Assembly: GCF_003670115.1 (NCBI RefSeq)
Contig: NZ_QQTY01000004.1
Location: forward strand, 1-64,000
Length of the DNA stretch: 64,000 bases
DNA from: Natronorubrum halophilum
Lineage (GTDB): Archaea > Halobacteriota > Halobacteria > Halobacteriales > Natrialbaceae
Direction of reading: 5' to 3'
Shown here: positions 7,052 through 15,077 of the stretch, one piece after another
Position numbering within the stretch: position 1 is the stretch's first letter
Layout of the letters: every line of letters begins with the position of its first letter
Position numbers and translations under genes: made by a program
The notes under the pieces: generated by a model
What the model saw: only the letters and a program-made list of their open reading frames with translations
Told to the model about the DNA's origin: nothing
The model's database searches: none

Positions 7052-7984
7052 TCAGGCGTCGCCGTTGACTTCCTCGCGCAGCGTCTGCATCTCGACGACG
7101 CGGTCGGCGTGGGCGTTGTGTTGGTGGATCGATTCGTCGTTGGACTGTTTCATCGTGATCACCGCGTCGTCTGGCAGGTGATCGAACTCCTCGACGGTGC
7201 CTTCGGCCAGCGCGCGGACGCAGTCCTCGACGAACTTCGCGTCCGCGTGGGCCGCGTAGGTCATGTGATCTTCGTCCGGGCGCTTCGCGAGGTTGTAGAT
7301 TCGGGCGCTCATCGAGTCGCGCGCGATGTCGATGATGTCGTTCAGGTCGACCGCCGGATCGCCGTTCGATTCGATCGTCAGCGTCGCGTGGCCCCGCTGA
7401 GAGTGTCCCGCCTGCGGGACCTCGTCCAGAAACGCCGTGATCGTCTCGTCCTCGACGCCGAGGTTCTCGAGGGTCTGTTTCGCGCGCGCGGCGGACATCC
7501 CCTGGGAGCAGGGACAGACGGTCATCCCGGTCACTTCCGCGCCGATTTCCTCGCGGGTCCCGTCTTCGGTCGCGGTCGCCGAGGCGATGATGTCGACGGT
7601 GTGTTGGGTCTCACGATCGCTCGCGGGCGTCCGCTCGCGGCGCATGAACTCCGCTCGCATCGACACCTTCGCGGTGGAGGTGTAGTCGTGTTTCTCGAGG
7701 AGTCGTTCCGCGGCCTCGCCACAGACCTCCTCGACGCGGTAGGCTTCCTCGCGGGTCGCGTCCTCGAGGATTTCGTCGATGACCTCCATGTTGCGGCTCA
7801 TATCCGCGCCCTTGCGCCAGGCGGGGAGGTCGACGAAGACCTCGAACTCGGCGGTGAGCACGATCGGGCGTTTGCCCTCGCGGGCGAGTTTGACGAGTTT
7901 GTCGACGCCGGTGACGCCGACCTGACTCAGTCCGACGGTGACGTCGGGCGACGTGGCTTGCACGTCCGGAAGCTGGTGACTCAT
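7052..7984 (-). CDS. mptA: GTP cyclohydrolase MptA (FolE2/type IV)
   Basis: A 310-residue protein from ATG 7984 (MSHQLPDVQ). Another ATG 30 bases upstream adds a basic decapeptide and is less likely. Motifs: KGADMSRN (58-65), [11 protein letters not shown] (152-162, metal-ligand cysteines) and [10 protein letters not shown]. MptA converts GTP to 7,8-dihydroneopterin 2',3'-cyclic phosphate, the first pterin step. In haloarchaea it feeds tetrahydrofolate-type cofactor synthesis; in Haloferax volcanii loss of this gene causes thymidine and hypoxanthine dependence (established knowledge). The candidate later-step enzyme MptD is at 40910-41272. No operon partner is visible. Confidence 0.93.
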
Positions 7985-8110
7985 TGTCCGCATTCGGGGC
8001 AGGGGCCGATTCAACCTTTCGGAACTGGCAGTCGCCGACGTGTGATCGGGGATACCGAACCGATTCTAGCGACGGCGATCCGTTCTCGAGTCGCTCCCGA
8101 TCCCGCGTCG

Positions 8111-8149
8111 TTCTTTAAGTGCTTCTGGTCACAAGGTAAAGCTACGAAG
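8111..8149 (+). repeat. Promoter-like repeat element, copy 1
   Basis: Shared with copies at 9161 and 9304: GTTCTTTAAGT, then CTGGT(C/T)ACAAGGTA, then an AG..A-rich end. TTTAAGT looks like a TATA box, and the conserved block extends through the expected transcription start. This copy ends 55 bases upstream of the nucleotidyltransferase ATG. Confidence 0.75.
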
Positions 8150-8204
8150 GGCATTCGGGCGTGGTCCGCCCGCTTCTCGTTTCGCTACTCCTCGAGTGTC
8201 AGCT

Positions 8205-9131
8205 ATGACTACCGTCCCGGATCACGTCTTCGAGGCCGCCGACGAGTTGCTGACGGCGATCGAACGCGGGCACGACGTTTCCATAGCGCTGGCGGCCGCC
8301 CGCGGCAGTCACGCCTGGGGTGCGGCGAGTCCCGAGAGCGACTACGACGTCGGCTTCGTCTTCGTTCCTGACGACCTGCGGCGCTACGCCCACCTCGAGG
8401 AGCCACCGGCGACGATCCACGAGACGGCTGACGGCGACGAGATCGAACTGCAGGGCTGGGACGTTCGCACGTTCGCGCGCCTGCTCGCGGACTCCAACGA
8501 CGGCGCGATCGATCTGCTTCGGAGTCCGATTCACTATCGAACCGCCTACGATCCGACCGATCTCGCCGAATACATCGAACGCACGTACAACCCGATAGCC
8601 CTCTACCACGCGTGGCGGGGGATCGCGACGGGCAACTATCGCAAGTACATCTCGCACCACCTCGTGCGCACCGACGACGAAACGTTTCCGATCCTCGAGA
8701 TGCTCGAAGACGCCTACGTCGTCGAAACCGACGACGGGACAGCGACGATTCCAGCCGACGACGAGCGATTCGCCGAAACGCAGACGAAACCCACGGTGAA
8801 ACGGAACCTGACGATCTGTCGGGCGGCGATGTCGGCCCGATACCTGAAAGCGACCGGAGAGCGCGGGACGCACGAACTCCCGGCGCTCGAGTTCGAGCGC
8901 TTCCTGAGCGAACAGGCACCGGCGGTCTTCGAGCCGGATCGGATCGAACTCGCTCGAGACATGCTCGAGCGGAAACGACGGGACGAGGGAGCGACGACCA
9001 TCGGCGACGCCGTCGGTCGCGAGTTCGCCAGACCGCCGGCCGATATCGACCCCGAGGTTCACGCCGGCGATGGACCCGAAACTGAACGGCTGGACACGTT
9101 CGTCGACGAACTGATCGCCGCAGTCCGGTAG
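8205..9131 (+). CDS. Nucleotidyltransferase-superfamily protein (COG3541-like)
   Basis: A 308-residue protein from ATG 8205; an in-frame GTG at 8196 is possible. The N-terminus has the pol-beta-type nucleotidyltransferase signature GSHAWGAASPESDYDVG (34-50), where G-S and the D-x-D acidic pair would bind nucleotide and metal. The rest is helical. This matches the stand-alone predicted nucleotidyltransferases known from phages and many microbes (YcgL-like in Bacillus). Their substrate, protein or RNA, is unknown. It is not a typical short MNT of a HEPN/MNT toxin-antitoxin pair: it is three times longer and no HEPN partner is adjacent. Repeats with promoter character lie upstream (8111) and immediately downstream (9161). 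Confidence 0.82.
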   Translation: MTTVPDHVFEAADELLTAIERGHDVSIALAAARGSHAWGAASPESDYDVGFVFVPDDLRRYAHLEEPPATIHETADGDEIELQGWDVRTFARLLADSNDGAIDLLRSPIHYRTAYDPTDLAEYIERTYNPIALYHAWRGIATGNYRKYISHHLVRTDDETFPILEMLEDAYVVETDDGTATIPADDERFAETQTKPTVKRNLTICRAAMSARYLKATGERGTHELPALEFERFLSEQAPAVFEPDRIELARDMLERKRRDEGATTIGDAVGREFARPPADIDPEVHAGDGPETERLDTFVDELIAAVR

Positions 9132-9160
9132 CCGCGCCATTGATGTTAGCTGTTCGAGAG

Positions 9161-9199
9161 GTTCTTTAAGTATCTCTGGTTACAAGGTAGAGATATAGC
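9161..9199 (+). repeat. Promoter-like repeat element, copy 2
   Basis: Begins GTTCTTTAAGTATC and continues CTCTGGTTACAAGGTAGAG. It differs from copies 1 and 3 at a few positions, mainly after TTTAAGT and after GGTA. It begins 30 bases after the nucleotidyltransferase stop and 143 bases before copy 3. Confidence 0.75.
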
Positions 9200-9303
9200 A
9201 GGGGGACGCCGTTCTCGAGCGCTCGAACGTGCGAGTCACGACGCTTCCGAATTTTCGGCGGCAGGTTCGTCCGCTCGAGAACGCGACGTTGCGAGAGGCG
9301 ACC

Positions 9304-9342
9304 GTTCTTTAAGTGCTTCTGGTCACAAGGTATAGCTACGAG
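9304..9342 (+). repeat. Promoter-like repeat element, copy 3
   Basis: Over its first 29 bases (GTTCTTTAAGTGCTTCTGGT, then CACAAGGTA) it is identical to copy 1. It lies 137 bases upstream of the RNAP epsilon start, so if it is a promoter the leader would be about 110 bases. Confidence 0.75.
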
Positions 9343-9478
9343 GAGCTTTTCACGCCGCCACACCCAGAGCGAGAGCGCCGTCTAGCGGTCGGAACCGGTT
9401 GGAAAGACTGTTAGTCGCCCTATCAGACCGTTCGAAACGAGCGAGCCTTTTTCTGTCTGCCTGTCTGAGCGAGACGTA

Positions 9479-14111: not shown

Positions 14112-15077
14112 ATGGCTAGTTCCACCCGCCAGCGCCAGCGTGATTCTGAAACGGACGAAAAAACGCAGGAATCAGGGGGTGAGCGGGTATGCAGTGAGTG
14201 TGACAGCGGAACACTCATCAAAAGCGAGGATCAGGGAGAACTCGTCTGTGACCACTGTGGACTGATCGTCGAAGGAACGAACATCGATCGCGGCCCGGAG
14301 TGGCGCGCGTTCAACCACTCCGAACGACAGAACAAGTCTCGCGTCGGCGCGCCGACGACGCAGACGATGCACGACAAGGGGTTGACGACCTCGATCGACT
14401 GGAAAAACCAGGACGCGTACGGACGGTCGCTCTCCTCGGACAAACGCAATCAGATGCGCCGACTGCGCAAGTGGCAAGAGCGGATCCGAACGAAAGACGC
14501 CGGCGAGCGGAACTTGCAGTTCGCCCTTTCGGAAACCGACCGGATGGCCTCCTCGCTCGGCATCCCCCGGTCCGTCCGCGAGGTCGCCTGCGTGATGTAC
14601 CGACGGGCGCTGGACGAGGACCTCATCCGCGGCCGCTCGATCGAGGGCGTCGCGACCAGCACCCTCTACGCCGCCTGTCGCATGGAGGGGATTCCCCGAT
14701 CGCTCGAGGAGGTCGCCGCCGTCTCCCGGGTCGAGCGCAAGGAGATCGGTCGGACGTATCGGTACGTCGCCCAGGAACTCGGCCTCGAGATGAAACCGGT
14801 CAACCCGACGCAGTACGTGCCGCGCTTTTGTTCCGAACTCGAGCTTTCCGAAGAGGTGCAGGTGAAAGCCAACGAGATCATCGAGACGACGACCGAGAAG
14901 GGACTCCTGTCGGGGAAGTCGCCCACCGGCTACGCCGCCGCCGCGATCTACGCCGCGTCCTTGCTCTGTAACGAGAAGAAGACCCAGCGCGAGGTCGCCA
15001 ACGTCGCCCAGGTGACCGAAGTCACGATCCGAAACCGGTATCAGGAGCAGATCGAAGCGATGGGCATCTACGAGTAA
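14112..15077 (+). CDS. tfb: Transcription initiation factor IIB (TFB)
   Basis: A 321-residue TFIIB homologue that bridges TBP-DNA and RNA polymerase. Residues 27-49 hold the zinc ribbon (C27, C30, C46, C49; [10 protein letters not shown]...LVCDHCG). The B-reader/linker [19 protein letters not shown] follows, then two cyclin-like repeats at about 120-215 and 220-310, including [20 protein letters not shown] and [16 protein letters not shown]. Haloarchaea carry several TFB paralogues; which one this is cannot be told without comparison. It starts at ATG 14112; an upstream open stretch is not TFB-like. It is convergent with tRNA-Gly. Confidence 0.95.

Follow-up and report, generated by a model that had tools for sequence, protein, structure and literature searches.

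Three near-identical promoter-like elements surround two genes, encoding a nucleotidyltransferase and RNA polymerase (RNAP) subunit epsilon, in a 64,000-nucleotide stretch of the Natronorubrum halophilum genome (the window). Their conservation extends well beyond a TATA box, which raises the question of what factor reads them and what they produce. A sequence-only reading of this locus offered three answers, a shared operator, a family of small RNAs with a common 5' end, or a binding site for an unusual TFB/sigma-like factor, and suggested that both genes are co-controlled. Polymerase with epsilon has long been recognised as efficient on native templates, and the biological relevance of this RNAP subunit has been called enigmatic (PMC8305020). 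The Halobacterium epsilon for which that activity was reported (rpoeps, OE_1279R; PMC8305020) belongs, by homologue annotation, to the same protein family as the window epsilon. The literature that we found gives no DNA target, regulon or fold for the Halobacterium protein; here we propose a cognate promoter class.

Element copies and neighboring genes

The three elements are present on the same strand, with copies 2 and 3 each starting one base away from the positions first given (9161 and 9304) (Table 1). Repeat detection grouped them over 47 nt, with 91% and 66% identity to copy 1. Copy 2 is the more divergent of the window copies, and copy 3 is the closest to epsilon, with 171 bp between its TATA and the epsilon ATG. 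A pattern search of the 4.67 Mb genome returned these three as the only forward matches, with none in reverse and none for the reversed-pattern control; a separate genome search recovered copies 1 and 3. The conservation said to run from the TATA-like part through the expected start continues to about +10, and 38 nt are nearly invariant. Same-genus copies ahead of the nucleotidyltransferase gene have inserts resembling the hairpin downstream of copy 1.

Both genes had been named correctly. Epsilon is the NCBI annotation of the protein, and its homologues carry the annotation DNA-directed RNA polymerase subunit epsilon. The nucleotidyltransferase is RlaP-type, that is, an RNA repair nucleotidyltransferase, and its gene is interleaved with the element array in many Natrialbaceae. 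Epsilon also has a TATA-like CCTTTTTC of its own, which is likely a separate leaderless-type promoter, judging from sequence comparison; among Natrialbaceae it is retained where the array is absent (loci L049, L053 and L054).

Table 1 Features of the epsilon locus in the window, and distant epsilon-like proteins at three other loci
Feature	Position	Strand	Description	Basis
GTP cyclohydrolase MptA	7052..8014	-	Divergent flank holds elements in several genera	
Element copy 1	8111..8152	+	TTTAAGT 8114-8120; expected start ~8141-8144; intergenic, divergent mptA on one side, nucleotidyltransferase gene on the other	Sequence, repeat detection, genome searches
Hairpin CGGGCG-TGGTC-CGCCCG	8156..8172	+	Between start-block GGG and TTCTC (8174-8178)	Sequence
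RlaP-type nucleotidyltransferase	8205..9131	+	PF10127, E 1e-28	Profile match
Element copy 2	9162..9203	+	TTTAAGT 9165-9171; start block GAGATATAGCAGG	Sequence, repeat detection, pattern search
Element copy 3	9305..9346	+	TTTAAGT 9308-9314; start block TAGCTACGAGGAGCTTTT	
TTTTT of CCTTTTTC	9448..9452	+	~30 bp before epsilon ATG	Sequence comparison, inference
RNA polymerase subunit epsilon, 260 aa	9479..10261	+	Proposed recognition factor	Homologue annotation
Two-repeat TFB gene	14112-15077	+	~4 kb downstream of epsilon	
Epsilon-like protein, L406	993-1742		25-32% identity to window epsilon (range for L406-L408)	
Epsilon-like protein, L407	1348-1959		As for L406	
Epsilon-like protein, L408	1219-1836		As for L406	

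A dispersed element family

The observation at this locus is real and far larger in extent than first reported. The family consensus reads TTTAAGT-nn-YTCT[GC]GYnACAA[GC]GG, followed by a clade-specific start-site block, GATACGA in type I and GTAGTGA in type II. The pattern matches 83 of the 101 genomes in the taxonomic family of the window genome, at 1-11 copies per genome, and the reversed-pattern control always gave 0. Matching genera include Natronorubrum, Natrinema, Natrialba, Natronococcus, Haloterrigena, Halopiger, Halobiforma, Halovivax, Halorhabdus and Halorientalis. Scored with a 50-column PWM made from 403 copies, most elements reach ~50-69 bits, and 3 Mb of Markov sequence yields 5 bits at most. 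Given these scores and the absence of control matches, the element is not a product of chance.

Per-position statistics on 159 copies delimit a near-invariant stretch, TTTAAGTGCTTCTGGTCACAAGGTGAAGMTAYGAMGGG, from TTTAAGT (position 3) to GGG (position 40); upstream of the TATA there is just a weak C ~9 bp before it. Other families retain this architecture with variant right halves, and the element is dispersed across Halobacteriales. The right half is AAGGTRNAGATACGAnGG in type I and AASGGYTCRTAGTGAnG in type II, with the further variants AACGGTCTATAGTAAG (f4 g86), AAGGTAGAGATATGGACGG (f17 g54) and GATATAGACGG (f4 g61). A literature search for the motif or for epsilon promoters found no description of the motif, and the family appears to be real, widespread and previously undescribed. 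A viral origin was also considered and dropped, as a search of IMG/VR gave no element match and a phage search no credible one.

A TATA-like box without a BRE

The consensus haloarchaeal promoter combines a TATA, a BRE of CGAAA and a -10 WW (PMC4983044). Such TBP/TFB promoters have a TATA-like box 25-30 bp before the start. The nearly invariant TTTAAGT of the element resembles such a box and would stand at a normal distance from the expected start. The element differs in lacking the CGAAA directly upstream. Across 380 elements this position is C/T-rich instead, with pyrimidines at 93, 87 and 79% of bases -3, -2 and -1 before TTTAAG. Also unlike the canonical promoter, the element has a conserved block of ~20 nt directly downstream of the TATA that is, together with the start region, nearly invariant and of a type that follows epsilon.

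Elements co-occur and co-diverge with epsilon

Full-length epsilon (E below 1e-50; 17 genomes with weak matches set aside) is found in 180 of 392 Halobacteriales genomes. Type I elements occur in 105 genomes and type II in 24, with no overlap. All 129 of these genomes have full-length epsilon, and none of the 212 genomes lacking it has an element (Fisher 9e-62 over the 392 genomes, with shared ancestry ignored). The distribution is patchy at several levels. In family f5 a single genome (G306) has full-length epsilon and the same genome alone has elements; in genus g11 of family f1, two genomes (G011, G070) have both and three (G038, G057, G082) neither; and in f7, genus g35 has both, and the g49/g59 genomes have no element and, among the matches listed, no epsilon. 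Such patchiness makes ancestry alone a poor explanation.

Far from being absent upstream of epsilon orthologues, the element stands there at 72 of 80 loci from seven families (36 of the first 40, 33 by PWM and three by the type II variant, and 36 of the second 40). Linkage is not required for co-occurrence. In G306 epsilon lies on contig C22 and the four elements on C5, C70 and C2, and in f4 genus g69 element and epsilon are ~0.8-2 Mb apart or on different contigs.

Element distances were compared with those of epsilon and RpoB, using elements gathered with two patterns that were both run on all genomes. Element sequence tracks epsilon (partial Mantel r 0.70 given RpoB, 59 loci) and not RpoB (-0.05 given epsilon). 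With unlinked elements only, from 29 genomes, the values are 0.795 for epsilon versus -0.256 for RpoB, and 0.71 within family f1 alone. None of 5000 permutations reached the observed value in any run, with the qualification that these permutations leave some phylogenetic structure in. Since sites far from the gene co-vary with it as well, the relation between element and epsilon would seem to act in trans, not in cis alone. Another factor co-inherited with epsilon would produce an identical pattern of co-occurrence and co-divergence.

Arrays and genomic context

Copies are arranged in tandem on one strand or occur singly between genes, and singletons are found on plasmids as well. A further copy lies behind 130 of the 381 elements in the fetched loci (reversed control 0), and orientation within a cluster is nearly always uniform. 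Tandem spacing has a sharp minimum of 108 bp and is mostly 108-147 bp, with three shorter exceptions. Terminal copies precede epsilon on the same strand in 77 cases and the nucleotidyltransferase in 34, counts that are biased by a sample fetched around epsilon loci. Away from these two genes, copies show no preference for any downstream gene; the gene that follows is same-strand for 52 and convergent for 38. Two sites recur, the divergent mptA flank, which is occupied in several genera even where epsilon is not adjacent, and the interval separating an AEC-type transporter from a GNAT/thiE cluster (AEC and GNAT names were assigned from gene sequences). At matched sites in different genera the core is up to 100% identical (1.00), with flanks at 0.42 and 0.22. 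A core kept between near-random flanks is the picture expected of independent, selected units, which we presume to be transcribed.

Arrays at L102, L018, L042 and similar loci contain two kinds of unit, GACGGGAGA..TTCTCGAG inside and GAAGGGCTTTTCG usually last before the gene. A fixed order of units, with the GACGGG type inside and the GAAGGGCTTTT type last before the gene, fails in some genera, and L059 and L062 hold a single type.

These contexts leave the proposed co-control of the two genes poorly supported, and that reading is too narrow. The nucleotidyltransferase gene is interleaved with the array in many relatives, though not in all, and is absent beside many element-bearing epsilon loci; two genomes have their elements 3' of epsilon and others have them far off; and epsilon has the TATA-like CCTTTTTC ~30 bp before its ATG. 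The nucleotidyltransferase was likewise dropped as the partner of the element, because elements adjoin epsilon without it in several genera. It might act on short RNAs made from the elements.

Predicted fold of epsilon

Two AlphaFold2 (AF2) models of epsilon, the second built with 60 sequences and with a core (90-222) at pLDDT ~93, suggest a cyclin-like fold whose best matches are the TFIIB first repeat and cyclins. In yeast and human TFIIB, Brf2 and P. woesei TFB alike, it is the first cyclin repeat that the models resemble (Z ~8.5-11); the other top structural matches are cyclins. Foldseek E-values are not significant, and a Z of 9-11 for an all-helical domain is no proof of kinship. Aligned with nine TFBs by hhalign, epsilon showed no sequence homology (probability 0.3%), and a Pfam scan of 18 members up to E 1 gave no TFIIB (PF00382) match. 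Epsilon as a TFB homologue by sequence was rejected on these negative searches, and together with the Foldseek values they indicate fold likeness, not TFIIB membership. Members of the TFIIB/Brf/TFB family have two repeats, whereas epsilon, whose predicted helical core superposes on the first, would have one. It is also without their zinc ribbon; in epsilon alignments C109 is the one cysteine that is nearly invariant, and there is no N-terminal ribbon with two Cys pairs. The DNA downstream of the TATA is contacted, in structures of TFIIB, by the first cyclin repeat.

A proposed epsilon-dependent promoter class

We propose that haloarchaea have a distinct promoter class that depends on RNAP epsilon, with the element as its core, a reading that we judge to be slightly on the probable side. 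TBP or an equivalent would bind TTTAAGT, and the epsilon-containing polymerase would read the TATA-to-start block and the start directly, which would substitute for the missing TFB-BRE contact. That the family is confined to species with epsilon and changes along with it points to epsilon as a specificity factor for promoters of its own class. Among the options of the sequence-only reading, an unusual TFB/sigma-like factor fits best, given the co-occurrence, the co-divergence, the lack of a BRE and the TFIIB-like predicted fold; small RNAs that share a 5' end fit too, in view of the copies that show no preference for a downstream gene. Most copies would be autonomous units producing short non-coding RNAs that begin with GATACGA.. 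or GTAGTGA... Because CCTTTTTC is kept in loci without the array, we think that the array yields mostly short RNAs rather than the main epsilon mRNA. The unit array beside the epsilon gene may exert feedback on epsilon. Besides the lack of sequence homology with TFB and the non-significant Foldseek values, some observations on the elements count against an epsilon promoter class. At three mismatches, 51 epsilon-positive genomes have no type I/II match (several carry further variants); eight of the 80 loci have no upstream element; and conservation continues into the transcribed part, beyond what promoter recognition usually needs.

A bolder formulation, which we offer tentatively and regard as doubtful, is an archaeal sigma-like system in which epsilon would be a relative of TFB, or a mimic of it, with a single cyclin fold. 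It would redirect RNAP to BRE-less promoters of its own that drive multi-copy short regulatory RNAs, with arrays beside the epsilon gene. A bacterial alternative sigma factor with an autoregulated promoter is likewise a polymerase-associated specificity factor with a promoter class of its own, sites next to its gene and factor-site co-divergence. Epsilon, by contrast, is archaeal and unrelated to sigma, its sites are tandem arrays that probably give short RNAs, and its recognition of them is predicted.

The proposal provides a concrete, testable DNA target for epsilon, and the known biochemistry, activity on native templates with a relevance called enigmatic (PMC8305020), makes it directly testable. 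If true, archaeal promoter choice goes beyond TBP/TFB variants, an accessory subunit bound to the polymerase can define a promoter class in the fashion of a sigma factor, and that class is accompanied by short RNAs that are widespread and so far undescribed.

Alternative explanations

The strongest competitor, in our view unlikely, is a small RNA gene family under ordinary TBP/TFB control, whose RNAs act on epsilon-RNAP in a 6S-like manner or on epsilon expression. It would account for conservation reaching ~+10 in the transcribed region, for a TTCT ~10-20 nt past the expected start (294 of 408, versus 97 in control windows) with a weaker GAGC[GC]AC ~30-40 nt past it, for the sharp 108-bp minimum spacing, and for the lack of a preferred downstream gene besides epsilon and the nucleotidyltransferase. 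Yet the strongest, co-varying conservation takes in ~20 nt upstream of the expected start, outside any such RNA, and the BRE of an ordinary promoter is absent. Furthermore, no RNA structure is conserved past the expected start (mean z -0.08), and an Rfam 15 scan of the window found tRNAs only, with no match at the elements.

Somewhat less probable again is the shared operator, in which a co-inherited regulator other than epsilon binds from TATA to start and controls a regulon with epsilon and the nucleotidyltransferase among its members. A bound protein suits the conserved 20-nt block, and two annotated genes do lie behind the window copies, but the site is long and non-palindromic, and the nucleotidyltransferase is missing near many loci. 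The regulator would also have to match the patchy distribution and the divergence of epsilon, even where the two are unlinked.

Ordinary alternative tandem promoters for the epsilon and nucleotidyltransferase mRNAs, served by one of many TFBs, are improbable. The TATA-like box is at the usual distance, copies often lie 60-250 bp upstream of epsilon, and the genome has at least nine two-repeat TFB-like genes (plus one short single-repeat protein). Against this, no BRE is present, many copies face no gene, and in G069 and G090 the elements are found 3' of epsilon. The 50-200 nt leaders implied would also be unusual in haloarchaea; 72% of Haloferax mRNAs are leaderless (PMC4983044).

A mobile or duplicating intergenic repeat (MITE/REP-like) spreading from the epsilon locus would fit multiple intergenic copies, on plasmids too, but is very improbable. 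There are no conserved mobile-unit boundaries (at matched sites the 38-nt core alone is kept, and the flanks of some pairs are close to random). Inspection by eye revealed neither terminal inverted repeats nor target duplications, the phage and IMG/VR searches gave no match, and none of the 212 epsilon-negative genomes has a copy.

Distant homologues and plasmid-borne epsilon

The weak epsilon homologues of the 17 genomes set aside (E 1e-7 to 1e-22) look like a separate, distant paralogue family. At the three examined (Table 1), no element was found in the 3-3.5 kb read. The L406 gene adjoins a resolvase-like gene, which suggests that it has a mobile origin.

Several haloarchaea carry epsilon on plasmids. 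Among the Halococcus dombrowskii plasmids CP095006, CP095007, CP095009 and CP095010, three carry elements and the fourth carries epsilon; on the Halorussus halophilus plasmid CP044526, element and epsilon stand side by side.
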